Positions 33,846 to 62,803 of a stretch of DNA of 64,000 nucleotides are shown here, in pieces. The notes beneath the pieces are model-generated. The model had not been told where the DNA came from and ran no database searches. It saw only the letters and a list, made by a program, of their open reading frames with translations. This DNA is from Lathyrus oleraceus. Its lineage: Eukaryota; Streptophyta; Magnoliopsida; Fabales; Fabaceae. Location of the stretch: NCBI RefSeq assembly GCF_024323335.1, contig NC_066581.1, forward strand, positions 443,139,816 to 443,203,815, given 5' to 3'. Each line of letters starts with the position of its first letter. Within the stretch, counting starts at the first letter, position 1. A program made the position numbers and the translations under genes.

Positions 33846-36774
33846 TGACAAGTCCTTCAGACTTCTGCCTACGTACCAACATAAAAATGAGGGATCCAAA
33901 CCTCGTAGTTCGTGGTATTAATATCAAAATGAGTGGATTGCTTTTAACAAAATATTAAGTTTAAAATAGGCACAAAGGGCCCAAAAGTTTGAATGAGTGT
34001 TATTTCTTTTTGTCTTTTGAAATTTTAAGTCAATATGATTAGATTCATTTACAAGTTTGATTTAAGAAAAGAGATTAAAAATGCAATGGCATAAGCCCAG
34101 AGTTTCTAATTGGCAATAGAGTCTAAGTTTATAAATCAAAAGCAAAGAAAGTTTTTTAAAACCGGGGAGAGATTTTAAAATTTAAGAAGTGAGAGGAGAT
34201 GAAGAGACTAGTCCTAAGCATAAAATTAAAAGTTAAGAGTTGAAAAGATCTGACCAATGTGATGCAATCCAACAGACAAGAATGTCATATAGAAAACCCA
34301 TTGTCCCTTTGGACTTTGAATCTAGCAATATCAAAAAGCAAATAGAAATATGGAGAGCAAGGCGTCAAATAAAGATAGCCACATCTAAGCAATCAACTTC
34401 AGAACCAAAAGTGTTCTTTGTCTTCCCATGTATCATATGACATACTCCTTGATTGGCTCAGAATAAGGCATTAGACACAGGTTCAAAGTAACAGTTTTAT
34501 CAAGACCATGTAGTAGATGAACTCAAGTGGATTCCAATACTTGCATCAGTTGAAAGATCTAATCACAATAACTTGGTCTCAGAAATGTTGGCATTGGCCA
34601 AGTCCTTTTGCATAGGGAATGTTGCCTAATTCTAAGTCCAAAGCTCAGATCAAATCAACAGTCGACACAAACATTTTTTTAGAGTTTTTGTTGTTTATTA
34701 AGTATTTTAAGGTCCTAAGGCCACAAACACAAACAAGTTACACAAACAAATATATAAAATCACAATATACGGCTCAAGTGAGCAAAGTGAAAATGACATA
34801 AACATAAACAAGTTAAATGATATGTAAATGGAAAATGAAATGGTAAATGACTTGAATTTAAATTTCATAAAGTAAATGACTTGAAAATAAAAGCAAGATT
34901 AATAAAAAGTAAGTCAAATGTTAGTTGATTAGATGTTAGTGATGTTTTTATTTTCAAATGATTAGGTCATTCTTTGAAGAACACTCAACCCTCTATTCAC
35001 AAGCATGGATCCTTGAACCAAGACATCTTCCAAAGGAAGGAAAAAAGGCCAAGTTTCCACACAATACCATGAAATGGGGGAGACTTACAATCTCACTTAC
35101 TATAAAGCTATGCCTTTAGGGTCAAAATTTAGCGCTATGTTAAGCAATCGTAATTGGACTTATGTAGAAGTCACAAATATCTGAGGTCGGGCAATAGAAA
35201 CTTTGCTGTTAGTGCATGTTAGAGATATGGTATAATGAACCATACTCCTAAAACATACCACACACAAAAAAGAAAAATATCAAGGGATGGACCTATCTCA
35301 TCCAGACTTGTATTGGTTCATCTAACACAAAGTTATTGATGAACCAATTAGCCTTAGGATATTAAGACTTCATTGGTCAATGGAAGGGATGAGAAAGAAT
35401 TGGATTAAAGATGAATAAGGAGGGGAGATCAGATAAACACAAATTGGTTATGGGAGGAATTTTATCAAATTAAAATCATTCATTCATTTTGGGAGATGAA
35501 ATGTACAATTCATCAATCCCCTAAATCCAATGATTTTAATCCAACAAAAGTCAAATCAACCTTGACCAAGGCCCAAACACATAGTCAAACTTCACAAGTC
35601 AATAAAAATGGCTCAACATAATTTCTACATAATTAATCAATTAAAAATCAAATTAAAATGCATTTAAATTGAATTATGTTTGGTCAAAAACCTAAAACCT
35701 CTTCAAAACACCAAATAAATGGCCAAGAGATTTATCCTAGGTCAAATAAGGTCAAAGGACCTTAGACAAAAAATTTCATAATTTTTGAAAAGTCAGAAGT
35801 ATTTTTAAATAATTAAAAATATGCACAAAAACAATTAAATACAGAAAAATAACAAAATTGATCCAAACAATAATTTTACTTCAGAAAATGAAAGAGGAAA
35901 ATATTTGAAAATATTTAGTGAAAGTCCCATATTTTTTGGATTAAAAATGAAATTAATATGAATTAATCAAAATAAATGGATTAAATGAAAAATCAGAAAA
36001 TAAAATATAAAAAAAAAAAACAAGGCCATCAGATCTCCCTCATTAATAGAGGTGGCAGATCTGATGGCCAAGCGCGCGTTCCAAAAACACCTTAGTCAAC
36101 TGCACCACACGCTTGGTAATCAGATTGTACGCGTGAGATTAAAAGATTTCAAACGGATCAGATGACCTAGATTTATCCAGCGCACCACCAGAACCCTAGC
36201 TCCGGTCATCTTCTCCGGTGAGGACCACCAGACTGGTCCAACCAAAACCTTATGAAAAATGAAAAGTGAATACACTAATTTGAAGGAAAAATGCTTAGGA
36301 GCATGAATCTGGCCTCGATTTTCTCCAATTCCAAGTATATAAAAAGATATAGGGATTTGAATTTTAAGGATCATGAACTGAGTTTCTTCGATTTGACCTC
36401 GAAGCAACTCAATCTTCTTGCCTAAATTGATAGGATTTCATACAACCAAAAATCACAAAGAATGGTGAAGAATTAAGGGAGAATCGAAGAGAAGAAAATT
36501 CTGAAAATTCACCTTCAATTGAGCTTCAGATTGGCACGATCTTGATTCTAATTGTGCTTGACCTTGGTTCAGATGCTTGTTGGAAATGATTAGGATCAAA
36601 AAGAGATCTGGACTCTTGGAGTTTCAATCTCAAAATATATGGAGAATTGAAACTCTATTTTAAAAGAAAACCTTCAAGATTATCCTTCAATGGTGAGGGT
36701 TTGAGATTGCAGATTCAAAGCTAGGGCATGAGGTCTTTAATTCTAAGCAATGAGGGTCTTATTTATAGGCCATG
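33843..36774 (-). repeat. LTR C, truncated 5' LTR of element B
   Basis: A direct repeat of LTR B from about 24680 to 27470 (for example AACCTCGTAGTTCGTGGTAT, AGTTATTGATGAACCAATTA and GGTGAGGGTTTG are in both). The left, primer-site end is missing and is replaced by RNase H. The right side is interrupted at 36774 by Ogre copy 3, so its remaining ~1.5 kb should lie beyond the right edge of the window. Confidence 0.85.
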
Positions 36775-37828
36775 TGTTATACCCCAATTTTGTCCAGATT
36801 CGTTTTTTGCCACAATACGTGCATTTCCAAACCATCCTAAAGCTTGAGTTTCACGGATCCATTTTCATCTGAGGAGGAGTATTAAGTTTTAAGCAGGATC
36901 GTGGGTAAGTCCTATTATGCTAAATACCATATCAATAAGTCCATGGGCATAGATATACATATGTTTTATTATAAGTGGAAATCATTTATGTGTTTGGTAA
37001 TGCGTGGCTCTAATAAGGGTCACATTTGGTTCAAAAACAGTTCTTGCTTTAGATCCGTACCTTTTCAAATTAGGTAGTGTAGACATCGGTGAACAATTTA
37101 ATTTAAAACTCACACTTTTTGCACCATTTGTTCATTGTGTGGTTGTAAGAAGAGGGAGCGAGTTTTTTTTCTCTACCATGGTTTTCATACACAAACTCGT
37201 GTGGTTGAAGATATTGATTCAAGTTTACATTAACCACACCATAAGTTCTAGATTCACAAACATGATTGTTTTAAATATCAATAATGCAAGTATATTACAC
37301 AGGCTGTTACAAAATCCTAGGATTTAAAATTACAGCATAATCTAAAAACAAATGGGAGAAGCTTTGAGCATTCACCCCCAGGCTGTTTTAAAGTGATACC
37401 CCTTTTAAAGGTCGCCTGCATTCATTTCACAAGCCATACCAAAGTGCCTCAGACCCGCGAGTGGAAGCCAAAGAGAAAGTAACGGCAACAGCTCCCTAGG
37501 GATCTCGAAATAACACTATGGGATCCACGTATCAGAGCATTGTGTCTAAAGTTCGAAGAGTGTAGTGGAGTGGACAGGAATTCAATTTCCTTTAAGTGAC
37601 CTCCATCTCCGTAGCTTCATTAAGTCACGAGCCAATAGATGACCTTACCTGATAATAAAATGCAAGTACAACGGTTACCATGAGGTTCAAAATCATAAAA
37701 GAAGAATCAATCTTAAGTTACAGGTTGGACCAAGGAATGTCACAGGGTAACTTAAAACAGAAGGATAGACAAGAAGGTTCCCAAACTTGTAGAACAACCA
37801 AATAGCAACAGACACAAGCAGAGTGATC

Positions 37829-38235
37829 ATGAACGATCAACCGGAATGTGAAGCTCGCCAAAATGATAAACCTGTTCGAGTTTATGCTGAGGGAATTTAC
37901 GATCTTCTTACTTTGGTCATGCCCGTTCTCTTGAGCAAGCCAATCAATTGTCTCCAAATTCCTATCTCCTTGTTAGGTGGTGCAATGATGAAACCGCTCC
38001 TAAGTACAAGGGTACAATTGTTATTGCTGAGACCAAACGCTATGAGTATCTTTGCCTTTGCGAGTGAGTTGATGAAGTTATCGCAGATGTGCCATGGGTA
38101 ATCAATCAAAGGGTTCATCGACAAGCATCAAAATTGACTAGGTGGCTCATGGTTACCCTTATCCTGATACAAATGGAGCTGAAAAAGAGGTTTATGAACT
38201 TGTTAAAGCTACTGAAAAATTTAAAGAAAACATAG
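37829..38235 (+). pseudogene. choline-phosphate cytidylyltransferase fragment
   Basis: About 130 codons align with the catalytic domain of CTP:phosphocholine cytidylyltransferase, the rate-controlling enzyme of CDP-choline phosphatidylcholine synthesis. Visible pieces in order: DKPVRVYAEGIYDL, then after a frame shift FGHARSLEQA (the HxGH nucleotide-binding motif, with the first His changed to Thr), YLLV, CNDETAPKYKG, AETKRYEYL, VDEVIADVPWVINQ, FIDKHQ, VAHGYPYP, and AEKEVYELVKATEKFKEN. At least three frame shifts and two stops make it a pseudogene. It reads as one continuous coding stretch, so it may derive from a spliced transcript. It lies inside the Ogre copy 3 LTR. It is the only host gene sequence I recognise in the window. 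Confidence 0.8.
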
Positions 38236-40164
38236 AAAATTGAAGGAAATTCTAAAGACATACTTGTCTGAAATTGAAGGAAATGTAACTTGACATGATT
38301 AGGAATTGACTTCCTTTATGAACTTCCAAGGCACAAATAACTGCAAAGTATGACAAAAGGGAAAAATGAAGGTTTGCATCAGTAGAAATCCGTGGGACCA
38401 CATAACTTCCGAAAATCTCACCAAGCTACAAAGAAGAATCGATTCATCCCTTACAGATTGGCAGGATCCACATATTGGTCCCCATAATATCTTGGGCAAA
38501 ATTCTCCTCTAACGGTTTGATGTTATCCATTCGATGCCAGCTCATTTTTTTGTACCTGGAGTTGGGACCACTCACCTGGATATAAATATAGAAACGTTCA
38601 TTCTTTTAGGGGGATCCTACCGTAACTCTGCTAAAAAGTCCCTAAGAACCTTTTGCACTAAAGCTCAAGAATCTCCAGGTTTAAGCTAGAGTTTCACACT
38701 GAAACTCTAACCTAAACGAGCTCATACCGAGAAACATAGTAAAAAGAAAAGAGAAGGAAGAAGCTTATCTGGAAACGTGAGGGATAAAGCATCACCGGCG
38801 GCTTACTTCCAAACGAGACCAACATAAATCGCGCTGAAAGACCCTCCTCGTAGCTTCGAACATGTTTGGTTTGTTTCTTTTCAAGCTTCCTATTTATCCG
38901 TCTTGATCTCATTATGTTAGCCAAATAGCTTTTCTTCTTCTGTTTGATTTTTGTTTGTTGGGTGTGGGTGTGTTTCGATCTGTCGGTTTAAGGGGTTTTT
39001 TGAGCAAAACAAGGCTGGATCCTTGATCCCGGGCCAAAAATAGGGGGGGTTCGCCGGAGAAGAAGGCGGCGCCGCTGCCGTTGGCCGACGACCATCGTCT
39101 TCTCTGGTAGGGCGCAAATGGAGAAAGGTATACAAAGTTGCAGAGCAACTTTATATGTGTGTTAGAAGAGAGAGGAACGAATGAAGAAATGAAATGTTGG
39201 TCTTGCATGATGACCTTTAGGTTTAGATTCCTAACTGTGTGGTGGTGACAAGTGTCTCCACCATTGGGACACTTGTCACCGCTCAGACAGTACACCCTAT
39301 CGGATCCGGTGCGATGGCCCACACCCTTACCGTGTCTGTGCACCCTTGCCCCCCATTCACCTGTGTTGACCAGTTTAGGTCATCTAATCTAACGGTCTTG
39401 GATGGGTCCTCGTAGTCAACCCGTTGATTGAATATTTTTGACTTCGTGGGCCTGCGCTTTTGGGGCCTCTTGACTTGGGCCGGATGGGTTGCTTTTGTCA
39501 CACCCCCCATTCTGTTTTAAGAGTGCTTTGTTTTCTTTTGGGCTCATAAGTCCCATTGGTTTTATATACTATTTCTTTTTTGTTTTGTATATATAATTTA
39601 CTTGTCATTTTGTTTAATTAATTATTAATTGATATTTCATTGATATTTTATTTTTAACAATAAGAATAAGTTTGTTTCATCATCATGATTTAATTAGGAT
39701 TATTCAAATGATTTCTTTTCAAATTTCGTTTAGATTGATATCGTGCATTTGCTTGATTGGATCTATTATACAAGTTTTTGTAAACCATGTATCGAGTTTT
39801 TGACCATACTCAATCATTGTTTACCATGAGTTACATTTCCATTAAATAAATTTCAAAAATAAATCACATAATTCTCGATTTAATATTGAGCCCGTTTTTA
39901 AATACTTTTGTAAGTCGATCGCTATCAAAGCATTGCCATCAACCTCACATAGCCTACTCTTGGGCTTTCTTACAATGAGACCTATTTGATTTTTTATTAA
40001 TCGAATAGATGATTGATCCACTAATTAAAAATCTAATTTATCTATAAACACCAATTCAAACCTTGGTCCAACACCAAACCTTTTTTCCAAAACATATTAG
40101 TTCTAATAAATTCACATTCAACATATTTAATTAATATATTCTTTAAAAACTATTTAATAATTTT

Positions 40165-41040
40165 TCTTTGAATGAAAAGGAGAATAGTAAGTGTCCGCTT
40201 CTCTATCTCTCGATTATTCGAATAATTGGCGTTCGCCATATTGCTCGAATTTTCGTCATTTAATTAAAACCCTAAAACTCCATAAAATTAAAATCACTTC
40301 TCCAAATAAAATATAAATTCTAAAAACTTTACTTTAATAATCGATCTTTGAATCAAAAGGAGAATAGTAAGCGTCTGCTTCACTATCTGTCGATTATTCA
40401 AATAATTGGCGTTTGCCACATTGCTTGAATCCTCGTCATTCAACTAAAACCCTAAAAAACTTACAAATATAAATCATCTTCCTGAATTAATGTAATACTC
40501 CAAAATATATTTTCTTTTATAAACTTTGGATGAAAAATAATACAGTAAGCGTTCACTTCACTTTTTCCCAAGTACTCGAACGATTGGCGCATGCCATATT
40601 GGTCGAATTCTTGTCATCTGATTAAAACCTTAATCGTACAAATTCAAAAACTATTTTACTATATAAAATATAACTTCTATAAAAAAACTTTATTTTTATA
40701 AATTACATTTCAGATGATAAAAGAATGGGAGGCGTTCGCCTCACCATCTCTCGAATAATTGAATGATTGGCGCTCGCCTTATTGCTCGATTTTTCCGTCT
40801 GCTGATTAAAACACACTAAGTAAACTTGGATAAAGGAATGAGTGGCGCACGCCTTATTATTCCTTGAATAAGAAAGTGGGAGGCGCATGCCTCACTATCG
40901 TGCATATTCGATTTCTGCAAACAAACTTTCAATAATAAGTTAAAACGAAAAAAGGAGTAGAAGGCGTTCGCCTTAATATTCCTCGAAAGAATTGAACGAT
41001 TGGTGTGCACGACATTGCTCAATATTTTGTCGTTCTTCTC
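40165..41040. repeat. degenerate ~110-180 bp tandem repeat with GC hairpins
   Basis: About six diverged units inside the LTR. Units carry AAAGGAGAATAGTAAG(C/T)GT, a (T)CGA-rich stretch, and pairs of short inverted repeats such as GGCGTTCGCC, AGGCGTTCGCCT, GGCGCATGCC and GGCGCACGCC, followed by ATTGCTCGA(A)TTTTC and ATTAAAACC. Confidence 0.8.
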
Positions 41041-41680
41041 AAAATACCAAACATATTAAACCTAATTTCTCGCCCCCGTATGACCAACAACTTAAAACTC
41101 TCTTAAAAAAGAACACTATTTAATCCTTTCTAACACGCAAAACAAACTAGTGCTTAAGCCTCCGCCGAGAGTAGACAAGCAAACGTTTAGCCTTTAGATT
41201 GCGATCTAGACAGTCATTCATTAAAAGACACCAACCAACCATAGTTGCCCAAACTACGAATGCTTTGATTTCCTTATTTCACCAAAAGGATACGTATGCA
41301 CGAGATTGCGAGATCTTGGTGAGCACACTAATAAAAAAATGTCCCTTTTCTCCGTTCTGAGGTTTCCATCAATCTCTATTATTGACCTTTATCACTTGAA
41401 GAAAACAAACAACATAAGTTAACATTCAAATCGCAAATTGAACTAAAAGGTTCCCGTTGAGTACAACAGACGTGAGGATTTCTAATACCTTCCCCTTGCG
41501 TAATCGACTCCCGAACCCGAATATGGTTCCGAAGACCATTATTCTGTTTTACAAAGGTTTTCTCGATATTTTCCTATTCCTTCATTGGGATAAATAAAGT
41601 TCGGTGGCGACTCTGTTCGAATTAATTTTCTTTTCCGCGACCATCGCGAGGGATCGCATTATTTTTTGGGGTGCGACAGA

Positions 41681-41698
41681 TGGCGACTCTGCTGGGGA
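41681..41698 (+). other. primer binding site, tRNA-Arg type
   Basis: TGGCGACTCTGCTGGGGA, two bases after the LTR end. Ogre elements are reported to use tRNA-Arg as primer. Confidence 0.9.
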
Positions 41699-42463: not shown

Positions 42464-44276
42464 ATGGAGCCAGGAAAGAGAAAAACATTCCAAATCAAAG
42501 CCAAAGTACCGTGTGTGAAGGGTTTCATTGCATTCAGAGATGGGTTGACTAATATCCATCGAGACGCATTCACACTCAAGTATGGGAAGATTTTACACTT
42601 GTTTTCCATACGAGTATAAAAGGACGCTATTACCGCACTAGCCTAGATTTATGATCCACCACTCAGAAGCTTCCTCTTTAGAGATTTCCAGTTGGCCCCA
42701 ACTTTGGAAGAATTCGGAAGAATATTGGACTCTCCCAAGCAGAAGAAGGGACCTCATAGGGGATTGGGTCAAATCCCAAAACTCAAAGAGCTGGCAGAAG
42801 TATTAGAGATTCCAGTTGAAGATCTAACCCCTAACATCAAAACTTGGGGGAAGGTACAAGGAATTCCTCAAGAATACTTGGAGAAGACTGCTTAAAACTT
42901 TGCTAAAGCCCAAAAGTGGGAAGCCTATGATACTATTATGGCTTTATTCATTTTTGGATTGGTTTTATTTCCTAATATGGAGAAGTTGGTGGTCGTAGCA
43001 GCTATTAGTGTGTTTTGGGCCGTCAAGGTTAAGAACGAAGGTCTAGTGCCCGCACTCCTGGCAAATGTTTATAACACCTTACACTTACGCTTAGAGAAGA
43101 AGGGAGGATTGCTGTTATATTGCATACCACTCCTTTACCAATGGTTTGTCTCTCATGTATTCAAAGATGTTGATACGATTGAGGGGATGGATGGATACGA
43201 GTGGCCTCAAACGCTGGTAGGACTCACTGAAAATGCCATTATTTGGTATCCTCATGGTTTGAATATGGGAGATACAATTACTAGTTATGGAGAATTTCCA
43301 AATGTACCATTAATAGGGTCAAAAGGGTGCATTAACTACAATCCAGTTTTAGCAGTGAGGCAGTTGTGTTATCCTATCACATACAAGTCAGATGACCAGT
43401 TGTTAGAAGGTTTTGTCTTCCATGATATGGAGGATCTCGTTATGATGAGAAGGGTTATCCAAGCCTGGGAAAAAGTTCGCTTCAGAGGACAAGACAATTG
43501 TAGGGGATAGAGAACCCTATTATCAATGGGTCACAAAGAGAAGTCAAGAGATCAATCTACCATTCATCCTCGATCCTCCTACTCAACCTCCACCACCAGA
43601 GCCTACCCATGTCTCCATTGAGGAAGCGAAAGTATTGAAAGCTACTATAGCAAGAATCAGGCGAGAAAATGAAGAGCTACAAATCAGCTTCCAACAAGTT
43701 TCAAATGAAAGAAATGAGATGAAGTGGGAACTAGAGAGGAAAAAGGCTCAGCTAGAAGCAACTGAGGAAAAGGTCGATAAGGAAGAACACAAGAGAAAGA
43801 AGGTAAAAGTAGGCATGGAACAAGCTGACCTCTACTTAGAAACAATCAAAGCGCAGCTAAAACAAGTCAAGAAAGAATGCCCAAAGAATAAGCGATGGTG
43901 GCTACGAGCAACAGAAGAAAAGAGAGAAGTTAGAGAGACATTAGAGGCTAAGATACATGATCTCACTATCTCTCCTCACAACGCTGAGACCTAAGTTGAG
44001 CACGAGTGCCGACTTTAGGAAAGAGCCCTTGAAGCATCTCGAGTCACACCTACGACGTGGGCCGAGAAATGTCAAGAAGCAAAGGATGCTAGAGAATATG
44101 CTCAATATTGGAAAGATAGATTCGAAGAATTCCATCAAGACCGTGTGATATGGCTAAGAGAAAGAGAGCAAGTCATTGAGGATTACGATACATTCAGAAA
44201 AACTATTGATTTCTTGCAAAAGGACAAAGATGGGTACCGTACAAAGCTCAACAGTTTAGTAGAATTCTACAACTAG
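42464..44276 (+). pseudogene. Ogre ORF1 (copy 3)
   Basis: Starts MEPGKRKTFQIKAKVP at 42464 and ends at TAG 44274-44276, about 600 codons. Early stops occur at about 42617 and 42643. FRDFQLAPTLEEFGRIL follows, then a stop at 42893. A 190-codon open stretch (42938-43510) carries NVYNTLHLRLEKKGGLLLYC, WPQTLVGLTENAIIWYPHG, FPNVPLIGSKGCINYNPVLA and RRVIQAWEKVRFRG. After a frame change comes a long coiled-coil (43635-43994, RIRRENEELQISFQQVSNER and on) and a Tyr/Trp-rich end. This unknown protein is specific to the Ogre group and may be related to plant-mobile-domain-type sequences; I cannot assign a function. Confidence 0.8.
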
Positions 44277-44778: not shown

Positions 44779-46290
44779 ATGACGTTGGAGCAAGTTGAGG
44801 CTAATCAAGCAACCATGAGGATGGACATCACTGCGATCCAAGAAAAGATGGATCAACTGCTAGAGACAATGCTAACAATTTCCCAAAGAGAAAGGGTTGT
44901 GGATGTAGAAATTGGAACAAGGAAGAACGACAGCACGACAGGATTGGTCCATCAAGACAAAAGCTTCACTCATGCTAAGAAGAACTTGGTTCATATACCT
45001 GTAGAAAACAATTGAGAGGGAGATCGTGTAGAGCCTTCTGATGCGTCTGCTCATTATGGGTCGGAAATGGGAGGAGATGATTCATATTATGATTTTTATG
45101 AACCCTATCCACCCAAGCCTAAAGTTCTCCCAGATCCCGCTGTAGAAAGGCTTTACGCCTTGGAAAAGAAGATCAAAGCTATAGAGGGGAATAACATATT
45201 TGGTTCCGCTGCCATGAACATGAGATTGGTGTCAAAATTGATCACCCGACTAAATTTAAAACTCTTGATTTTGAGAAATACAAAGGCCAGACTTGCCCAA
45301 GAAGTCATCTGGTAATGTACTTCAGAAAAATGGCTGCCCATACTGAGAATGAAAAGTTGCTTATTCACTGTTTCCAAGACAATTTAAGTGGAGCATCCCT
45401 AAGATGGTACATGAGCTTAGAGCAAAGGCGAATCCAAAGTTGGGAAGACTTGGCTGATGCATTTCTCCGTCAATACAAATACAACTTGGATATGGCACCC
45501 GACTGAATGCAACTACAAGGGATGGCCATGAATGTAAAATAGTCATTTAAAGAATACGCCCAACGATGGAGAGAGTTGGCTGCTCAGGTGGAGCCATTAA
45601 TGTCGGAAAAAGAAATGACTGGAATATTTGTGGATACGCTGAAAGACCCTTTCTTTGATAGATTGGTAAGCAGTGCGGTGTCAAACTTTGTGCATCTAGT
45701 AACAATTGGAGATCGCATAGAAAAAGGCTTAAGGGATGGAAATATCCAAGGAGTTGTGGCAGCCCCCAGTGCACCGAAAAAGTATTCTGGAGGCTTCCAT
45801 AAGAAAAGAGAAGGTGATACAAACGCTATATCTAGAGGTTACAAGGGGAAGCAAGAGGCTTCATATGGCCAAGTCGCTGCAGTAGTGCCCATACCCTACC
45901 AGCAACCAATACAATAACAACAAGTCTACCAACAACAACATCCACAACAACGTCAACAACAAAATACCGTTCCACCAAGATAATTCAAACCAAGGCCCCC
46001 GCAAGGCAACTTGACCCTTTACCAGTGCCTTATAGCCAAATATTCCCATACTTGCAAAAGGAGGGACTTTTGACTTTGAGAGAACTAAAGTTGACTATTT
46101 TTCCATATCCACCAGGATATGATGCTAACGCCTATTATGAGGTTCATATGGGAGCGCCCGACCATACCCTGGAAAATTGTTTTGCATTCCAGAATTGGGT
46201 ACAAGACCTAATTGAAGCTAAGGTCGTTACCTTCACTCCAAGACGCCCGAACGTGAACACCAATCCCATGCCAACACATGGAGGTGCTTC
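44779..46290 (+). pseudogene. gag: Ogre gag (copy 3)
   Basis: Begins MTLEQVEANQATMRMDITAI with a short coiled-coil. After a stop at 45013 it continues YDFYEPYPPKPK and AVERLYALEKKIKAIEGNNI. After a frame change it reaches the capsid: YFRKMAAHTENEKLLIHCFQ, LSGASLRWYMSLEQ, WEDLADAFLRQYKYNLDMAP and WRELAAQVEPLMSEKEMTGI, with GDRIEKGLRDG. A CAA-rich Gln stretch (45905-45965) leads to the C-terminal MPYSQIFPYLQKEGLLTLRE and the knuckle-like GYDANAYYEVHMGAPDHTLE followed by NC. At least four stops or frame shifts are present. It is the most complete gag in the window. Confidence 0.85.
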
Positions 46291-48865: not shown

Positions 48866-49877
48866 TGGAGGTTGAGAAAAACAAAAAGGGGGGTTTGAAT
48901 TGTTTTTCGAAATAAAAACTTTTTCAGAAATCAAACACACACAGAATAAAAAGGAGATGACACAGAATTTTATACTGGTTCGCTTGAAATTCAAATCTAC
49001 TCCAGTCCACCCGGCCAAGGTGATTTCACCTTCAAAAAGGACTTAATCCACTAATCTTGAAAGATTACACCACCAATCGTCTAAGAGAATAATCCCTCAG
49101 CCCTCTCAAGTATTCAGACTACACAGAGTCACTTGAGGAAGTATTTTAAGTAAGAGTATAAATTATAATGTAATGTGCTTCTAACAAACAAGCAAGAATT
49201 ACATAATTATAAGAACAATAGCTTTTCACGTAAGAGAAGCAGCTCGTCAAATATAGGAAAGAATGATTTAAGATTTTTCATATTCTTGTGTGTCTCAGAT
49301 GTATTTTCTTGTGAAGTATTTCGTCCTTTATATAGTCGTTGTGAAGGACCGTTGGAGTGATGACAGGATCTTGGTCATTGAAGAATGTTTAATGTCATTA
49401 CTCTCCTTGTTTCTTTCTAAAACAGTTTTGCACGCCTCATTATTTCCTTCTCGAATTAATTTCTTTCCAAATTAAGATTTCTTTTCGATTATGCGTTCTG
49501 AACTTATGAGTCTGCATCAGAGTCTTGATAAATCAGAGTTTGTCTTCATAGGTTGATTATGTCTGACCACATCAGAATTTCTCAATGCTCTAGACTTCTT
49601 AAAATTCAGAGTCTGGATTCAGTATTCTTTTATCAGAGTTTCTGACTTCTTTATGTTGCGCTGGTATCTGCGTTGATCAGAATCAGAGCCTTCTGGACAC
49701 ATCCTTTGTGATTAGCATCTTATAATCAAATATTTTTGTATCTAATGTAAGTTTCTATCTAATGTTTGATCAGAGTCCTGCACACTAAAAAAATCTCGTT
49801 AGAGTACCATTTTTGTTTCATTCTTTGTTATCATCAAAATCTTAGAGATATATTGTAGAACCAACTTTGTTCTTACA
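48866..49877 (-). repeat. SIRE-like 3' LTR (1012 bp)
   Basis: On the reverse strand it starts TGTAAGAACAAAGTTGG and ends GTTTTTCTCAACCTCCA. It is nearly identical to 62804-63814 along its whole length. Confidence 0.9.
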
Positions 49878-49893
49878 ATCTCCCCTTTTTGAT
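49878..49893 (-). other. polypurine tract of the SIRE-like element
   Basis: The reverse strand reads CAAAAAGGGGAGAT directly before the LTR start TGTAAG. Confidence 0.85.
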
Positions 49894-50283
49894 GATGACA
49901 AAACAATACAGGGTAAAGGTGGAACATTAAAGAAAATCTTAGATCAGATAGGAAAGTGGGCTCCCCCTGAGTTAGATCCTTGTATAACCTAGATGTTCAT
50001 ACCGGACCTTCCTTGGTTTAGTGCTTTAGCTACTTTCCTGCATATCTTTAGTCATTGATTTAGTAATAATTTATTAATGATGTTTGCAATGCTTGAGAGG
50101 ATTTAGTTATGTTTCCATCAGAGCTGTTTTAGTTCTCCCCTTTTTTGTCAGAATAAAAAAGACATCAAAAAAAGGTTGATATTGATAAAAGGCATTTACA
50201 GATAAGCAACACATATGTCAGAAAGCAGAAAGCAAAGAGAAAGCAACAAAACAGAGAAAGCAACAAGCAAATAGCCTTGGTGC
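49894..50283 (-). other. SIRE-like 3' UTR
   Basis: About 390 bp between the end of the envelope-like ORF and the polypurine tract. It contains purine-rich pieces (CAGGGGGAGCCC, AAAAAGGGGAGAAC on the reverse strand). No gene was recognised. Confidence 0.6.
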
Positions 50284-52482
50284 CTAGGGGTTTGGAGGCG
50301 GAAACATCCTTTGGAGCAGCTGGGACAATATGTTCTGAATGTTGACATTGACTGAGTCATGTTGATCCAGCCTGGCCCGAACTACATGTTATTCTTTCTG
50401 TAGTTCCTCTAGAGTCTTCAAGACCAGAGGGACGAACCCATATTTAAAGTGCTCCCCCTGAGTTAGTGCATCAGCATTGGCTTTGGCAGTAACTTCTTCA
50501 GCAATACGAGTTGCTTCTTCAGCGTCGGCTTTAGCTTTTGCCTCAGCCTCAGTAGTAGCCGCAATAGCAGCAACAACATCAACACCATCCTTTGCTTCAG
50601 CTTCTCTGATTCTTTGACGTTCTTCTTGGCGTGTTTTCTCTTCATCTTCCTTTTTTGCCTGTTCCTCAGCTTCTCTGGCTAAGCGCTCTTGATGTCTAAT
50701 ACCAATGTCTCGGATAAATTCGTTGTGGACTTATTCAAAGAGGCCTTTCAGCTTGAAGGCTTCAGAGTTCATCCAACTTATCACTATGTTCCAGTGGATC
50801 CTTACCGCAGAGGGATCATCAATGATACCAGAATTGATGGTCAAAGACTTGACCTTCTTGACTGAAGACTCTGCAAAAACCTGGATTACTTCTTCAAGGG
50901 TAGGTAGGGTAGTCGCTGGTCTAGTGGCATAGGCAGGGGAGGGTAAGTTTGGGGCACTTAGATTAAGTGTGGGAGTTGTGGGGTTAACGGAAGTGATGGG
51001 TGATGGAATGTTAGGGCGTGAGTGTGAGCATAATTCAGGTTGTGGGGTTGGTTCAGATGGTGGTTGGGTTGGTTGTGGTTCAGAGTGGGCTGGTTATTGT
51101 GTAGGTGGTGGTGTTTGTCCAAATATGGTGCGATTTGGATGTACAGGAGGTGAGGAAGGAAAGTCTGGTGTAGGTTCAGAGTGTGATGGTTGTTGAGAGG
51201 CCAGAGCACGGGGTTGCAGCTGAGCCAAAGTGGGGGATTGGGGGTCAGTTGGTTCAGTGTTAGAGGAAAGTTCGTAGTAAGGTGGGGATTGAGGAGATGG
51301 TGATGATGATGGTTAAGTGGTTTCATTCAGCATTTCTGCTTCCGAAACGGGTAATGTGGTGGTAGCGAGGTTGAATATGAGAGAGGGTGGGTTAGAGGAT
51401 CTGGTGGTTGAGGGAGGAGTTTCAGAAGAGGTGTATATAGGATTTGTTTGGGGAAGAGAAGAAGAAATTGGTTTAATTTTGACAGAGCGAGGGACAGGTA
51501 CAGACTTACCTGGAGAGCCAACCAGAGGAACTATGGGTCTTGATCCAGAGGATTCTTCCAACTTAGCTTTCTTCGCCTTCTTGGACTTCTCAGAGGGCTC
51601 CCGCATCCTCTTCATGAAGTTAGGTGGATGCTCAGGAAGCTAGTCCACTGTGAAGTCAGAGATATCCACCCCTTGATTGGCAAGGTCCTGTAGATAGTAG
51701 GCTACTACCTCTAGAGGGTCAATCGTGGAGAACCGGTAGAGTCTGTTGGGAATCTCCCTCTGATCTCTGAATGCTTCCCAAGAGGTATCAAGTGTGGGTT
51801 TGGCTCTGACTTGATCAATGATTCCCATGCTCTTCAAATTCCGAGCATTCAGCGGTCTTCCAGTGTTAATGGTGACATCTTCCATGAGTCTGAGCTGAAT
51901 CAGGTGATCCACTAAGCCGCTCTCAATAAATAGATATGATATGAGTCTCCCTAGAGGGATGTAGTTCCTTGTCTTCATGTTGTTTCTGGTGTCTTTGACT
52001 GAGTCTCTGAAGTACTTGAAGAGGAATGCACGTAGACACAGTTTCAGACCCTTGTGAATGCAGTACAAGATACACTTCTGATATATGTTGATGTAGTCAA
52101 AAGGGTTTGAAGCAAGGTGATGATGAATGGTGCCTAAGATGATTTTCAACCAGACTCGGAGGTTCTGATGTAGCTCCTTGTTCTTGGAATGCTTGCCTTC
52201 AGCACTCTGTTGGAAGATGGTAGGGTTGATTTCCTGGGACAAGTATTTTGCCCTAGGGTTTATGTTGTAGATGCGTCTTCCTCCAGTCTTCTCCATGTTC
52301 AAAAGGGAGGCAATTGATTTCTCAATGATGACTATCTTGACTCCCAGAACGTAGGATACAATGTAGTGATCATATGAGTCTGCGAAACGCCAAAACTCCT
52401 TCACCAGATTTGTGTACACAGGACCATAGAGGCGTTGAAAGAAGGTTTCCCACCCTTGCATTTTCAATTCTTCAGTAAGGTC
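50284..52482 (-). pseudogene. SIRE-like envelope-like ORF, C-terminal part
   Basis: A single frame runs right to left through most of the region with only a few stops. First is a 275-codon globular part (QGWETFFQRLYGPVYTNLVK, IVSYVLGVKIVIIEKSIASL, IPLGRLISYLFIESGLVDHL, RPLNARNLKSMG, ending DISDFTVD). A TAG follows, then LPEHPPNFMKRM with a Lys-rich patch and long Pro/Ser/Thr-rich segments (51615-50960). Next comes MNSEAFKLKGLFE, an Ala/Glu/Lys-rich coiled-coil (50465-50690), and EHFKYGFVPLVLKTLEEL near the end. It is the gene found after pol in SIRE-type elements and often called envelope-like; its function is unproven. The N-terminal part is at 59611-59809, split off by the nested element. 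Confidence 0.8.
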
Positions 52483-53804
52483 TGAATTTCTGGTATAGTC
52501 AGAGTTCAGATGTTCTACACGAAGTCATGACATCTGATCCAACATTGTTACTTATACAACAAGACAATTAGAAAAATTAAAGCCCAGTACTCATATGCAC
52601 ACAGTCCCAGATGTCACGACATCTGCTACTCTACCACCATGGACAGAAGAACATCCAGTTATGTCCATCTAGAACAAAGACACAGTAGAGATCAAACATG
52701 GAACTTATGTTTATTAATCCTGCCCAGTTATCAGCATGATGTCTCAACATTGATTTGAACATCACCTGTTCCAACATTACAGAAGGATGAATTGTAACAG
52801 ACCAACCAGTCTATCAGTAATAGCAGTCAATAATGAATGTCATAACATTCTGTTTTGCAATCAGAGTGCAGGATATGTGTCAAGTCTGTTATTCTCTTCA
52901 TAAACAGACTAGAAACAGACTGAGTTATAACAGACAAAATAAAGTGTGCAGAAGGTAAAAACACCAGTAATTGTTAACCCAGTTCGGTACAACATTACCT
53001 ACTCTGGCGGCATACCAAGCCAGGAAGAAGATCCACTATTAGCAGTATTAATTCAGAGTTAAACTCCCCCGTTTACAACTCCTCACTTAATCCCTACCCA
53101 ATGCAATCTATACCTAGGCACTCCTAGATAGAAACCTCCAGTTCCATTCCTATCACTACAATTACCATGTGATGCTTAGACAACTTGAACATGCTTCACA
53201 ACTTCATTCAAGAACATAACCACTCTTGCCTACAGGCTTTGAGTTACAAATAATCTCATGCTTTCAAGCACTGAGAAACACCTGGTAACCTTCCCACAGG
53301 TTGGGAGGTTTACCTCTCACACGCACCCCTAATTTTTACATTGTTTGAGGCTTACAAAACCTAGGTTACAATCTGCTATTTATAACCTAACCACCCAACT
53401 GGATTTGGGCCTTCAGAAATCACAGCAAATCTTTCCTTTGCTGTTACAGAGCTGGCAGAATTCTTCTGCTACAATCAAGGTCTTCAATATTTTATTTCCT
53501 AAAAGATCTCCATATTTGGGAACTGTATATTCACCCAATATATTCACCAAATCTTTTGATTGAATCTTCAAGATCTTCACATAGGAGTTAGGATATTCAC
53601 CAGATCTCCTAACTGATCACAAACCAAACCAGAATTAACTGATTCAAATTTATACACATGTGAGATGTCACAGTCCCGATGTCGTGACATCTTACATGAC
53701 ATGTTGGTCCAGATGTTGAACTTCTTCAACCCAACATATTAAAGCAACATAGGTGATTACATTATTTGTTTTACAAAATTAATGCCAATCTTATGGTACT
53801 AACA
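52483..53804 (-). repeat. LARD-like 3' LTR (1322 bp)
   Basis: On the reverse strand it starts TGTTAGTACCATAAGATTGG and ends CCAGAAATTCA. It pairs with 58288-59610 with only scattered differences. Confidence 0.85.
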
Positions 53805-53821
53805 ATCTCCCCCTTTGGCAA
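53805..53821 (-). other. polypurine tract of the LARD-like element
   Basis: The reverse strand reads TTGCCAAAGGGGGAGAT next to the LTR start TGTTAG. Confidence 0.9.
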
Positions 53822-56800
53822 ATTTTAGCTAAAACAAATAACCCTATATGGGTTTGCACTTCCTCTTTGTCATTGACAGCCCCAATGCCACCACCACTGT
53901 TGGTGTACATGAGAAAGAAGTTGTACAATACACAATTGCATCACAACCCTTCCCCTCAACAGGAGGGTTTCCTGAAGAATATGTAATGCTGAGTACATAG
54001 ATAATGTAACTCAGATCACAAGACACAACTGTCTTCTTAACTCAGATCACAAGACACAACTGATATACCCAGTTAGTGACTTTTGTGTCTGAACCCATCT
54101 TCTCCTTGATACCAGATATTGCTTGCTTCTGGTTCATCCTCAGGACAATGTTTCTCTCCCCCTTTTTAGCTAAACATTTATAAATGACACCCTCACAAAA
54201 CCAGATCCAGGAACAGTATGCCCAGATCCTGACAAACCCAATTGTTTAGTGGGAATGAAATGTCGCTCTTGTGAGAAGAGGTGTGTTGAAACATCCTTTA
54301 AATAGGCCAGACCATGCTTAGGAATTAGCGGAAGGAGTAAATGCTTGGTCAAGATCCATAAATATTTGCTGAGAATCAGTTAGAGAATCACCACCTATAT
54401 CCCAGACAATCTTTGAATACCTTTTACAGCTCTTGACTGTTTCCAGAAACAGCAGTTCCAAGATTATTCCATAAATGCTGTCAGACACGTTACAAGCTAT
54501 GTCTTAACATTTAATACTACTTTTGTCTGTGTTCTTCATATATCCTCCCTATCACCATTTTCTAATGCCACTTCTCACCTCCAATGGTAGCTTGACATCT
54601 GGCACCACACATCCACATTTCCTTATATAACTTCCAGCAGGTACATAGGATATCTTATGTTAAGACATCACATATGACATCTTGTGAACACTCTGTCCTT
54701 TATTTTCACAAGACAAACTATCAGCAGTTTAAACCATATAACTGTAGTTTAATCAGCAGCAGAAGCAAAACAATTACTAGCTATGGCTACTAGTAATACA
54801 CACATGCACAAGGGTACTTCTCCTCCCCCTAAATTTGTGCAATAATCAACAGAATTACTAGTTATGGATGCAACTAGTAAGACACACAAATGCACAATGC
54901 ACCAGGGTACTTCTTCTCCCCCTAAACCTGTGCATGCAACAACCCTAACAGCTACTAAACTTCAGCACCTGTACCAGCCAGAATGTCATGCTGACATCTG
55001 CTATAACATCAGCACTTGTGCACCACATCCATATTTCCTTATGACTGAAGTTTCAGAAGGAAATAACAATATTGTCCAAGGCAATGTCATGACATCCGGT
55101 TAGACATTCTTCTGCTCACTCAGCCTTGACACATGCCCCATCATCTCACTAACTAACAAGGTGCCATACCTTGTTATCTGAGAACCCATAGACCACAAGC
55201 TTGATGATTACTTGCAGTGCAAAGACAGAACTCCCCCTGTCATGAACAACCAACTCTCCTCTTGAAACTTGGAGATGAACATATCCAACACCCCAAAGTT
55301 GGACCTTCACTTACTTCCTGATTCAAAGAGAACCCAGACAGTTTGATGAATGGAAAACATAAGACGCATCTTCATGTCTTCAAGAGCACACTCCCTGATC
55401 AACCTTCTTGGCTGAACACATCCACACCCTGTGACAATCTCTCTTCTAACCAGAACACAAAACAACATACCACCATCTGATATTCTTCAGATATCACTGA
55501 ATCACAAGCTTGATCCAGACACAAATTGGGACATATACACTCTCATCCCATTACAAGAGATAGTCTTCCATATAAGCTCCAGCGGGTACAATCACTATCA
55601 GAAGCCTTGTCATTGTATGTGGCATTCTGAAACAATCCTGCTTGCACATGTTCTTTAACTCCAACCACAAGCTCCAAGAGCTGACTAGAAAACACCTCCT
55701 TTTGTCTTCAACTTACTACCTTTCTGCTCAAAAGTAACTTGTCTCAGACTATCCTCAAGAATAATCAGTTGCCATATGTAGATTATCTTGATTCTTTGAA
55801 CTCACCTCTGAGATAGACCAAATGCCACTAGTTGATTACCTCTTTCATGAATCCTCATATGAAAAAGTCAAATGCTATTATTATTTTTTTTGACCTCTCC
55901 ACGTTTATCAGACGTCTCCCAAAGATATTCTGACCTTTCAAGTGAGACTTGAAGTTCAAGCTACATGTTGAACACAACTTAGATTTTCTAAGACATGAAC
56001 ATGTAACATCCTTTCTATCCAGCAACTCCAAAGAGTTGCAACGAGAACGACCTTTTTGAAGTATCCAATCTACAACCCTGTAGACCCTTCTATCTCAAGT
56101 TGATGTGCCACTTCACCAACTAAGATTCTGATGTTGAACCAAATGTCATAACCTTGTGTTTTGACATCTAGCTGTTGAATTCATCTCCTTCTTCTGCCAC
56201 TTGAAAGAACTTCCTCCCTTCACAGAACAAGATTTCAATGTTCTCATAGACTTGATTGTGGAACCAAGTTTGAGTAAACATCCTCCATCCTGCAGGTTTG
56301 CAGTTAAGTCATCCAAGCTCACACCTTGATGAATCCCTTCTTCTTCTCCAAAGACATCAGACACTCTGATGCATGAGTCTTCAGAAGGACTAGTTAGAAA
56401 CTATCCCTTCAGCTATACCGAGGATTCCACTTCCTAAAGCAAAGTTGTTTCCATGATGTCAAGACTGCTGCCACTTGTTCTTGACTCCATAGTGTGCATT
56501 AGCTAATGCACTTTCTTACCTAGATCAGAAGTAAACTGATCCACGTAACCACCATCAGGACTATGATGTTTTCTTCTTCTTGTACACACCAAGGCTGAAC
56601 ATGTTTCTTGCTAGGAAACCTTTTCAGAGATCATATGCTTTTGCTACCACCAAAGTGATAGATCATAAACCAATGTACTATCCTTCCTATGATTCTGCAC
56701 AGGATCTTGAAGATGAGATGTTCCAACATCTTTTAAAAACATCATTTATCTTGAGCTTCAAGGATAATCAATTAAATACTTGTACTTGGCACAAGTAGAC

Positions 56801-58269
56801 ATTGATCTTAAATCCTTTCCCTGTATTCCTTTCAGATACTTCCACCAAAAGACTACTTTGAAAATACTCTTCTAGTGTCAACATCTTCTGCTTGCAAGCA
56901 TCTCAACAGTTTTGAAAATCTTCCCAGATTAAATTCACCCTTAGGAATGAGAGAGATGAATTCTTCCTTGCAAATGTGTCACACAACCACCAGAACCCAT
57001 GTGACACAGGTCAACAGCCAACCAGACCCTAGGCTGACCGAACTTTAGGAGGTTAACCAAAACTCCCCCTCAAATTAACAATCATGGAAACTTCACACCA
57101 ATATCCATGCATTGTACAGACATGTCTCAACATGACATACACCATCCCTACCAGTGGCAACTAACTCTATGAGTTATACCTATACATACTCGAATCACAC
57201 CAGTCAATAGTAGATATGCATTGCCAGAGCATACTACCTCAACCAACCTCTGAATCTTCATATTCTCACTCCTTGAAAGAACTGCCACTTCTAAGCGTGG
57301 TGTTTGAATAACAAGATTCATGGTCCCAATCCTCTTAAATGAAATAGCAATCAGGTTACCCCATTATTGACTTCTAACATCCAGGGGACTTGTCTTCCCA
57401 CACAACATAGTACTTCAGGGAACAACTATCCAACCCTGATCAATCTACAGGAATAAGACAACCAGCAGGAAATTTCACAATGTCACATCTCAACCAACTC
57501 CACTTCTAGAGATCAGACTTCTAAAAGTGACCGTCTTGAGCACACACACAGTTGACCCTACCCTTGTCAACTTAGCAAACACAGATGTCTCCTCTTCCAG
57601 GTCATGAGTAGATTCCAACCAAAAGTATCCCTTTGTTTGACACCTAAACACATCTGCTCTTCAACCAGTAGTTGCATACTTGTTGAACAACATGTTCTAA
57701 CATTACATAGAACATTAGTTCCACGTTCTTGGAACAAACCCTCCTTGACACTCTTCAAGGTCTTCATATACACTACCCAAGAGAGTAAAAGAATCAGTGA
57801 TCAGGTGATTCTTACCATCCTGAAGTGAGAACTTCATGATGAGTGGACTTGAGGAGACTCAAGTATCTTTGACATCTTCAGTAGACTATGATGAAATCTT
57901 GAATACAACAGCCTTTCATCCATATGAGGGGAACCTTCATCAGAGTTTGAGTTTAGACAGGTATTATGCAGCGGAAATCATAATACAACTCAACCTATGA
58001 CCACGCACTTCACCATATCAGCCTCCAAGAACATACCAAGTTTGAATATGTTTCAATACTAGCACAACTGTTCCACACAAGGGCCAATTGCCAACCTCCA
58101 GAGACAGGCACACACAGTTCCTGTCATGAATAGTCCATCCACCTACTTCAAGGGACCATTCAGGGAAATCACAGAACCTTCCACAGGTTCCAACATCAGT
58201 ACTGGCATAACTCCTTGCAAGATACCAGAGAGTATCACCCATGGATCTCATCCAGAAACAGAACAGGAT
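53822..58269 (-). other. non-coding interior of the LARD-like element
   Basis: About 4.4 kb with only short chance frames (none above 80 codons). The plus strand is C-rich and pyrimidine-rich, with recurrent CTCCCCCT blocks (for example near 54825, 54918, 55233 and 57063). These are AGGGGGAG on the element's strand and resemble its polypurine tract. Repeated words such as GACATC and TGTCATGACATC occur here and in the LTRs. I recognised no protein domain. Confidence 0.7.
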
Positions 58270-58285
58270 GCCTGCTCTGATACCA
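58270..58285 (-). other. primer binding site of the LARD-like element
   Basis: The reverse strand reads TGGTATCAGAGCAGGC, a perfect core of the tRNA-Met site, two bases from the LTR end. Confidence 0.9.
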
Positions 58286-58287
58286 AT

Positions 58288-59610
58288 TACAATTCTGGTA
58301 TAGTCATAGTTCAGATGTTCTACACGAAGTCATGACATCTGATCCAACATTGTTACTTATACAGCAAGACAGTTAGAAAAATTAAAGCCCAGTACTCATA
58401 TGCACACAATCCCAGATGTCACGACATCTGCTACTCTACCACCATGGACAGAAGAACATCCAATTATCTCCATCTAGAACAAAGACACAGTAGAGATCAA
58501 ACATGGAACTTATGTTTATTAATGCTGCCCAGTTATCAGCATGATGTCTCAACATTGATTTGAACATCACCTGTTCCAACATTACAGAAGGATGAACTGT
58601 AACAGACCAACCAGTCTATCAGTAATAGCAGTCAATAATGAATGTCATAACATTCTGTTTTGCAATAAGACTGCAGGATATGTGTCAAGTCTGTTATTCT
58701 CTTCATAAACAGACTAGAAACAGACTGAGTTATAACAGACAAAATAAAGTGTGCAGAAGGTAAAAACACCAGTAATTGTTAACCCAGTTCGGTACAACAT
58801 TACCTACTTTGGCGGCATACCAAGCCAGGAAGAAGATCCACTATTAGCAGTATTAATTCAGAGTTAAACTCCCCCGTTTTCAACTCCTCACTTAATCCCT
58901 ATCCAATGCAATCTATACCTAGGCACTCCTAGATAGAAATCTCCAGTTTCCATTCCTATCACTACAATTACCATGTAATGCTTAGACAACTTGAACATGC
59001 TTCACAGCTTCGTTCAAGAACATAACCACTCTTGCCTACAGGCTTTGAGTTACAAATAATCTCATGCTTTCAAGCACTGAGAAACAACTGGTAACCTTCC
59101 CACAGGTTGGGAGGTTTACCTCTCACACACACCCCTAATTTTTACATTGTTTGAGGCTTACAAAACCTAGGTTACAATATGCTATTTATAACCTAACCAC
59201 CCAACTGGATTTGGGCCTTCAGAAATCGCAGCAAATCTTTCCTTTGCTGTTACAGAGCTGGCAGAATTCTTATGCTACAATCAAGGTCTTCAATCTTTTA
59301 TTTCCTAAAAGATCTCCATATTTGGGAACTGTATATTAACCAAATATATTCACCAAATCTTCTGATTGAATCTTCAAGATCTTCACATAGGAGTTAGGAT
59401 ATTCACCAGATCTCCTAATTGATCACAAACCAAACCAGAATTAACTGATTCAGTTTTATACACATGTGAGATGTCACAGTCCCAATGTCGTGACATCTTA
59501 CATGACATGTTGGTCCAGATGTTGAACTTCTTCAACCCAACATATTAAAACAATAGAGGTGATTACATTATTTGTTTTACAAAATTAATGCCAATCTTAA
59601 GGTACTAAAA
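58288..59610 (-). repeat. LARD-like 5' LTR (1323 bp)
   Basis: Direct repeat of 52483-53804. On the reverse strand it starts TTTTAGTACCTTAAGATTGG; the usual TG start is mutated. Confidence 0.85.
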
Positions 59611-59809
59611 AGGCTACGCCATTTCGCTTCATGTTTTCGAAATCAACCAAAGATTCACATAGAACTTCAAGCTTCTCAAAGGGAGTTGCTAGATATATGT
59701 GGGGCTCACGATCGAGGATGTGGGGTTCCCTGTAGACTGGGGTTGAGACAATGCCGGTGGTTACTGTAGTTTGTTGACTTGAAATAGGTGTTTGCTCCGT
59801 TGAGTTCAT
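59611..59809 (-). pseudogene. SIRE-like envelope-like ORF, N-terminal part
   Basis: The likely start is the ATG at 59809 (MNSTEQTPISSQQ), then a Ser/Thr-rich segment and FEKLEVLCESLVDFENMKRN followed by GVA, where the nested LTR begins at 59610. The other part resumes at 52482. An open frame extends upstream to 60016 but that part has the look of untranslated sequence. Confidence 0.8.
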
Positions 59810-60318
59810 TTGTTGGGAGAAGTTATAAACGGATTGTTGCTGAGAATCCAGGAAGAACAGTTGAAGATGATGTTGAAGGATTGAAGAGCTTGGTGAAAAC
59901 TGCAGAAATCTTTGAAGGAGATGAAGAACTGAGAGAGAGGGTTTTGTGAGGTCATGAGTGTAAAGTGTGCAAGTGTAGTTTGTAAATGAATATATACACA
60001 TTTGGGGTGCATGCAAAACGACAATAGAAGGTGAGAATGATTACAACCCATGATGGAGGTCTAATCCCCAAATCAGCACACTGCTCGAGGAGATATCAAG
60101 AGTCTGTCTCTTGATTTCTACTAGACAGCTGTCTAGAAGTTCCAAGGTCAGACACAAGACGTACCACATATTGCTTTATCTGATCTTCAAGAATACCAAA
60201 GGGTTGGATCCTGAGGATTTCTGACTCAGATGACTTCTAACTAGTAGTAGCATCAGAGTCAGATACAGATTCCAGCTGTTTACTTCATAGTCTTATTTTG
60301 CTATTTCAGAGGCATATT

Positions 60319-60543
60319 TTATTCTGGACAATTTTGAATGTTTAGATTTTTCAAGATAAAAGAGAATCTATCTTCAGCAAGGGGTTTGGTAAAAATATCA
60401 TCCCATTGATGGTATGTATCAATTAATTTTAAGATTATTACCCCGTTTTGAACATAGTCTCTAATGAAATGATGTTTTATTTCTATGTGCTTAGCTCTGG
60501 AATGCAAAATAGGATTCTTACTTAAACAGATGGCGGCAGACAT
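60319..60543 (-). pseudogene. pol: copia RNase H, C-terminal end of pol
   Basis: Reads SAAICLSKNPILHSRAKHIE, IKHHFIRDYVQNGV, HQWDDIFTKPLAEDRFSFIL and ends at 60319. This is the well-conserved last ~75 residues of copia pol. It follows the pre-integrase domain directly, so integrase core, RT and most of RNase H have been deleted at about 60545. Confidence 0.85.
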
Positions 60544-60544
60544 C

Positions 60545-60800
60545 AGAAATAGGATTCTTTCTCATGCTAATGTCGCCCAAATGTCTATGCCATACCCATT
60601 GCTCTTCATGAACAGACATAAAAAATTTTACATTTGTTCTTTTAAGTCTGAAAGATTTATTTTGTAAATATTGTTTTTCCTCCTGCCACTGAATGGGACT
60701 ATTCCATTGTTCTGATTAATTGCTTTACATGTTTTTTAATTGAAGATTACATCATAGTCGTTATCACTTAATTGCTTATTGATAACAAGTTATGCATTAA
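60545..60800 (-). pseudogene. pol: copia GAG-pre-integrase domain
   Basis: In one frame with stops: NKQLSDNDYDVIFN, KTCKAINQNNGIVPFSG, RRKNNIYKINLSDLKEQ and a WATLA/HRHLGD-like zinc-site end. It is the domain that precedes the integrase core in copia pol. It breaks off at the deletion joint. Confidence 0.7.
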
Positions 60801-61287: not shown

Positions 61288-61482
61288 AAAATTTTGAAAA
61301 GATTTTTCATATTCATATATAATTGTGTTAGAAGTTTGTGGGGCTTGAGATAGTTCTTCTTCATGTTTTAAACATTATTTATTTGTGAAGTCTCTTTCTT
61401 TTATCAAAGTTTGATTTTCATCATTTAGTTCTGAAGCAGTTATCTCAAGCTTATCACATTCTTTGATTGTTCTTTCAAGAAC

Positions 61483-62721: not shown

Positions 62722-62781
62722 AGTTTTTCTCACGTTGGATCTCTCTACACTGTTAAGTGTTTGATTAGAAAATCAATAATA

Positions 62782-62800
62782 GAGCCGTAGCTCTAATACA
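62782..62800 (-). other. primer binding site of the SIRE-like element
   Basis: The reverse strand reads TGTATTAGAGCTACGGCTC, a tRNA-Met-type site with one G missing (TTGGTATTAGAGC expected). It lies three bases from the LTR end. Confidence 0.85.
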
Positions 62801-62803
62801 AAT

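Follow-up and report, generated by a model that had tools for sequence, protein, structure and literature searches.

Host-gene capture by LTR retrotransposons has already been described (PMC13317346, PMC3726574, PMC2774510). According to the accessible text of these papers, the Bs1 element of maize holds pieces of three host genes within one LTR element (PMC13317346), and gene fragments are carried by LTR retrotransposons of rice and sorghum as they are by those of maize. The maize survey counted 425 elements and at least 189 captures; under the conditions that they set, its authors saw no single element combining pieces from two or more standard nuclear genes (PMC2774510). For BARE-1/BARE-2 of barley and the Veju TRIMs of wheat, the gain of foreign sequence is attributed to abnormal template switching (PMC13317346). 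The LTRs of Ogre elements are very long, at 1.9-6.5 kb (PMC6431247). Between them, the surveys and reviews, in their accessible parts, cover host-gene capture, retrotransposon template switching into LTRs and Helitron mosaics (PMC13317346, PMC5664825, PMC3726574, PMC2774510, PMC6431247, PMC11963269, PMC7264820, PMC4290129).

The locus reported here is a piece of spliced host mRNA lying inside the LTR of an Ogre-type element of pea. It was found in a 64-kb stretch of DNA, C3:443139816-443203815 of a 3.80 Gb genome, which is referred to as the window and supplies all positions given without a contig. The first-pass annotation had regarded the transduction of host-gene pieces by such elements as undescribed. 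That is too broad, since gene capture by LTR elements is known; what was not found described in the accessible text is the place of capture inside the LTR together with a modular pattern across many elements. Host-mRNA cassettes inside Ogre LTRs were not found in the literature covered, from which most subscription papers are excepted.

The insert, at 37808 to ~38260, is a decayed piece of plant mRNA for choline-phosphate cytidylyltransferase (CCT); it covers the beginning of the message, with 5′ leader, ATG and parts of five exons. A fragment of this enzyme had been proposed at 37829..38235, and the best match of that stretch is a cytidylyltransferase on each count. In translation, pieces of it score against Pfam PF01467 at E 1.9e-6, better than the curated cut-off, and against the solved structure of CCT-A at E 1.1e-14, and in tblastn with plant-type CCT proteins all 120 listed, out of 4685 matches, match the region at E ≤ 1e-3. 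Chance similarity to CCT is ruled out by these three results. The same 120 proteins gave no second match elsewhere in the 64-kb window at E 1e-3. The protein matches stop at 38228-38234, and the DNA alignment reaches ~38260. Identity to the pea host gene is ~85% over 450 sites. Homology to host CCT also includes the ~21 nt upstream of the ATG (37808-37828), which points to an mRNA-like template.

The CCT matches are split over three frames with stops and the frame of the catalytic domain is not intact, so the stretch is a pseudogene fragment; an intact CCT enzyme is ruled out by the frameshifts and stops. It had been described as reading through without intron-like gaps, which holds for the introns, as these are absent, but not for the open frame. 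A 102-aa frame at 37793-38101 had no PDB match because most of it lies out of the CCT frame, and a Pfam scan of the U3 frame at 37001-37327 returned nothing. The window copy differs from the host at 16, 20 and 28 sites for the three codon positions (143 sites each), with 43 non-synonymous and 21 synonymous differences. These values give no sign of coding constraint, and a coding role of the window copy is unlikely. Exact runs common to this copy and the host mRNA measure 21-25 nt.

A DNA search of the genome with the CCT fragment gave seven matches: the window itself, C3:443253214 (92%), C5:350921037 (92% over the first 214 bases), C7:197812077 (86% over the first 167) and three blocks on contig C1. 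The C1 blocks are consecutive, covering fragment positions 1-123, 122-237 and 236-326 at C1:379408967, 379409529 and 379410474, and are read as exons of the host CCT gene. Exons 4 and 5 were located by tblastn, giving a gene with introns at four places. When aligned to this gene, the LTR copy crosses all four exon junctions without intron sequence. The suggestion of capture from spliced RNA is supported by this loss.

Table 1. Features of the window around the CCT insert and the element that carries it.
Feature	Position	Strand	Remarks
Target-site duplication CCATG, left	36770..36774	.	Right copy after 3′ LTR, L008 7532-7536; empty site at window 27465-27480
5′ LTR, 4904 bp, Ogre-type element	36775..41678	+	Partner 3′ LTR C3:443252102-443257030 (~4928 bp)
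Left part of U3	36775..37787	+	~71-79% to sister loci without insert, whole or part; small patches higher
Intron-less host CCT mRNA fragment: ~21 nt 5′ leader, then ATG at 37829 and exons 1-5 in part	37808..38260 (right end approximate)	+	
Exon 1 equivalent of host CCT gene (contig C1)	37808..37951	+	87.6%
Exon 2 equivalent of host CCT gene	37950..38065	+	81.9%
Exon 3 equivalent of host CCT gene	38064..38154	+	89.0%; exons 4 and 5 next, to ~38260
Right part of U3	38261..38580	+	Native-looking near TATA box
TATA-like box TATAAATA	38581..38588	+	Matching resumes here in 2 of 6 sister loci; putative promoter role
Inverted repeat GAGTTTC..GAAACTC	38679..38717	.	Just 3′ of TATA-like box
Primer binding site TGGCGACTCTGCTGGGGA	41681..41698	+	Same site in C4 element
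ORF upstream of gag, DUF7745	42896..43507	+	E 2.1e-69
gag fragment, Retrotrans_gag	45195..45503	+	E 1.3e-6
Second LTR element, nested in the Ogre-type element	48866..63815	.	Own LTRs 48871-49879 and 62809-63816, 96% alike

The location of the fragment inside a 5′ LTR, as first proposed, is upheld (Table 1). The 3′ LTR of the same insertion, named in that annotation as the place to look for a second copy, does carry it: 75.6 kb downstream it bears the same CCT insert without gaps (92%). The two LTRs are 92.1% identical over 4834 aligned sites (K2P 0.083), and the K2P of the insert is 0.089 against 0.083 for the remainder. The match between the LTRs spans 36775-41678, which excludes a fragment inserted on its own beyond the LTR. 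Both ends of the element are flanked by CCATG, and the site is uninterrupted in a sister copy. Indel lengths relative to host CCT are identical in both LTRs; the damage to the fragment thus predates the insertion. At a substitution rate of 1.3e-8 per site per year, a K2P of 0.083 would make the element about 3 million years old. The insert lies ~320-770 nt upstream of the TATA-like box, a position that places it in U3.

Both LTR lengths fall within the Ogre range. DUF7745 is taken to be the ORF1 of Ogre. Just past the window (L017), the end of RVT_1 (E 3.3e-4, below the cut-off) and RT_RNaseH are followed by RVT_3 and then by Integrase_H2C2 and rve. A second RNase H marks the Tat clade, and the primer binding site usual for Ogre elements is one for tRNA-Arg. 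By its LTR length, its pre-gag ORF and the pol order of RT, RNase H, second RNase H and integrase, the element may be classed as Ogre-type (Ty3/gypsy, Tat clade).

Repeats are frequent in the surrounding DNA. Related LTR-like copies lie at 13841-16632, 24684-27471 and 33843-36766, the first inverted relative to the other two, and the Ogre-type element is inserted at the edge of the third. A complex tandem array at 8728-12944 has a larger unit of ~1.3-1.4 kb and internal repeats. The nested second element contains a further element, with an LTR-like pair at 52488-53805 and 58293-59611 (97% alike, 5.8 kb apart). Near 38285, a stretch of 52 nt in the 5′ LTR is missing from the 3′ LTR (L008); TAACT is present at both of its borders in the 5′ LTR and once in the 3′ LTR, as would be left by a deletion between two short repeats.

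The fragment is present in other copies too. An LTR on C5 with an internal deletion, matching window 36820-38042 and 40447-41678 and missing its first bases, carries part of the CCT insert, as a check of other genome copies had been meant to reveal; its K2P to the two C3 LTRs is 0.071 and 0.072. A public contig that was assembled separately contains a 90-aa ORF identical to the window frame at 83 of 90 residues and with the same frameshift, which indicates that the LTR-borne form of CCT has been assembled elsewhere as well. The proposal that the element has been amplifying the fragment is correct in that it was copied, but the extent is small: two insertions in this genome and the one ORF of the public contig.

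Nine matches resulted when the left U3 (37420-37820) served as query: three belong to the carriers and six, at 74-79%, to sister loci. Within the sequence compared, the CCT stretch had no match in any of the six. Matching of the sisters ends at 37787-37788 in five and at 37737 in the sixth, and resumes at 38581 in two. Between 37787 and the TATA box the window element has 794 nt, whereas these two sisters have ~365 nt of other sequence that they share, so U3 sequence was exchanged and not simply added. The left breakpoint of the window insert is placed to within ~37787-37810; its borders have decayed, and microhomology is therefore not readable there.

A less altered case is the C7 match, which belongs to a solo LTR of ~6.9 kb (L010, reverse strand, 931 to ~7819; C7 ~197808082-197814970) with ATGGG on both sides. 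Its CCT portion covers the 5′ leader plus exon 1 at 98% (220 nt) and the start of exon 2 at 91% (46 nt), with exact runs of up to 78 nt in common with the host mRNA. Joined to this CCT piece is a phosphoglycerate dehydrogenase (PGDH) frame of 341 aa (Pfam E 1.2e-24 and 2.4e-15). The first 848 of the 1023 PGDH bases match four consecutive blocks at C6:471305193-471306653 (97-99%), read as exons of the PGDH parent gene, whose three introns are missing from the C7 piece. In a Pfam scan of five C7 frames only PGDH passed the curated cut-off, the other modules being left without a name. In a separate locus (L050 416-2801, with a match at C5:359879280-359879542) there are frames of 275 and 488 aa, the latter containing one C7 module at 98%; the locus may be the host gene from which that module came.

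The K2P to host CCT is 0.023 for the C7 copy and ~0.16 for the window copy, and their left borders differ. On these grounds the same host gene was probably captured twice, the C7 event being independent of that in the window. Loci on C1 and C4, with a left side 98.5-98.7% identical to that of C7, contain no CCT or PGDH and have 277 nt there instead. Since one genome contains close relatives with and without the CCT-PGDH block, the capture step becomes legible at nearly single-base resolution.

Further young relatives came to light when the 2013-base left cassette of C7 was used as query. In this search 40 of 288 candidates were scored and 50 matches listed, from which ten short ones were dropped; among the remaining 40 matches listed there are 14 same-strand pairs 10.6-21.5 kb apart and 12 unpaired. 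Ten of the 14 pairs were compared partner to partner and are 98-100% alike. The LTR start is in view in seven of the ten, and in all seven the polypurine stretch AAATAGGGGCAAC precedes one partner, as for a 3′ LTR, which indicates that the host pieces are in both LTRs. The C4 pair has the same primer site as the window element, LTRs of 2111 nt that are 99.95% alike and the duplication GTGAC. The comparison with C7 covered 29 loci; the LTR start is common to 19 of them, and the middle differs. Across many contigs (L032-L060), modules are common to elements with different neighbours, in what looks like one Ogre-type subfamily with varied host pieces in the U3 zone.

From ten frames chosen by eye, nine match cellular families at E 0.01, one (WD40/THOC3) lying below the curated cut-offs. 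A set free of that choice was formed from every frame of at least 90 aa in 13 stretches (44,855 bp), giving 50 sense and 20 antisense frames, counts uncorrected for native LTR frames. Some of the stretches share modules, and the 50 sense frames are not independent. At E 1e-4 the sense frames matched 17 Pfam families, none of retrotransposons: Sec63, SNRNP200, WD40/THOC3, DUF842, L13e, two of PGDH, MCM, four of LRR, VHS, FKBP, NB-ARC and DUF668. At least 30 of the 50 had no match at this threshold (memberships sum to 20), and none of the 20 antisense frames matched a Pfam family. The LTR start is in view in nine of the 13 stretches; for L036, L047, L048 and L057 (FKBP, VHS, Sec63 and LRR), matches to a partner or to part of an LTR would place the piece inside the LTR. 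Parent exons were located for CCT and PGDH only. At their borders, pieces known from different elements overlap by 11-19 nt, as would be expected of switches at short shared words.

The likely origin of these cassettes is template switching between element RNA and spliced host mRNAs during the copying of U3, with LTR duplication spreading the pieces. The reverse transcriptase would leave the element RNA, copy part of a co-packaged spliced C1 CCT mRNA and return (copy-choice), and the CCT piece would replace some of the native U3. The single U3 of a retroelement RNA becomes the U3 of both LTRs, so the piece would be doubled and carried in both LTRs in the next generation. Two or more insertions of the element with the CCT piece would have followed, on C3 and C5; the one on C3 would have entered a related, older LTR, within its U3, and then decayed. 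In the related subfamily the same process would have been repeated recently, turning the U3 zone into a shifting mosaic of host mRNA pieces. Both the switch and the packaging of host mRNA are deduced from sequence comparison. Copy-choice is favoured by the sense orientation, the intron loss, the starts in the 5′ leader, the exchange of native U3 and the fusion of two mRNAs.

Some of these features would also be produced by a LINE-made processed pseudogene that landed in an Ogre LTR and later became passive cargo. Such a copy is intron-less and starts in the 5′ leader, a single insertion into a 3′ LTR would reach both LTRs in the next round, and any poly(A) tail might have been lost to decay, given the age of the copy. 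However, 36501-39500 has nowhere as many as seven consecutive A residues, the missing part is the 3′ half of the mRNA and not the 5′ end, and native U3 was exchanged rather than interrupted. The C7 LTR fuses two host mRNAs to each other and to LTR sequence where relatives have 277 other nt, its left junction looks clean, with neither poly(A) nor target duplication, and the young LTRs hold sense pieces of many genes. This origin is therefore unlikely. Capture at the DNA level, by a Pack-MULE, a Helitron or repair with gene DNA as filler, has a precedent in the multi-gene mosaics of maize Helitrons (accessible text of PMC6431247). It is contradicted for CCT by the absence of four introns and for PGDH by the absence of three, at exon borders, and is highly improbable. 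In a region as repetitive as this an assembly or alignment artefact could be suspected, yet the two LTRs are diverged and flanked by the same target duplication, another contig holds a third copy, and the frameshift recurs in the 90-aa ORF of the separately assembled public contig. An artefact has a negligible probability.

A separate matter is whether the host sequence in U3 is kept for a function, as promoter or enhancer or as a source of small RNAs acting on the host gene. Points in favour are the position of the insert, 5′ of the TATA-like box, the presence of such cassettes in young elements, and the exact runs of host mRNA in both the window and C7 copies. On the other side, the window copy has no sign of coding constraint, and the pieces vary between elements, so that no one sequence is needed. 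Retention for function is accordingly rather doubtful. A wider reading of the favoured template switching, possible but tentative, is that the U3 of the pea Ogre lineage is a hypervariable cassette, continually rebuilt from spliced host mRNAs that enter the particle and from cassettes of other elements. If true, this would be an RNA-level exon-shuffling system housed in LTRs. A host-derived U3 may then help the element: small RNAs directed against the earlier U3 would not recognise it, and silencing it would be hard for the plant without also affecting genes of its own.

The promoter region of these elements seems to collect and copy host mRNAs, and the findings suggest that part of the Ogre sequence of legume genomes may be a host-gene mosaic. 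A capture site in U3 is doubled in each new copy, persists in solo LTRs, adjoins the promoter and is easily overlooked in annotation. It also offers a testable link between element RNA, host-mRNA packaging and the targeting of housekeeping genes by small RNAs.

In their accessible text, surveys catalogue gene capture by LTR retrotransposons element by element; capture inside the LTR is not singled out for maize, rice or sorghum, and such cases may be among theirs unremarked. The C7 LTR differs from what those parts of the maize survey report in having two genes with located parents, CCT and PGDH. As in BARE-2, template switching would bring sequence into the LTR region (PMC13317346, in its accessible text). 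In the BARE and Veju cases described there, the donor is another retrotransposon or unknown sequence, unlike the identified host mRNAs of pea. The resemblance to Bs1 is that host-gene pieces, here of spliced CCT, are carried by a bounded LTR element. The host pieces of Bs1 lie between the LTRs, whereas those of pea lie inside the U3 of the LTR, so that a full element has two copies and a solo LTR one. Helitrons and Pack-MULEs likewise combine pieces of several genes in one element in a modular way. Their capture is at the DNA level, with introns usually kept, whereas the pea pieces are of spliced RNA and have LTR borders. In retroviral oncogene transduction, spliced host mRNA is captured by recombination during reverse transcription, and the captured genes sit in the internal region. 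The pea elements share with it the use of spliced host mRNA, but carry their pieces in U3.
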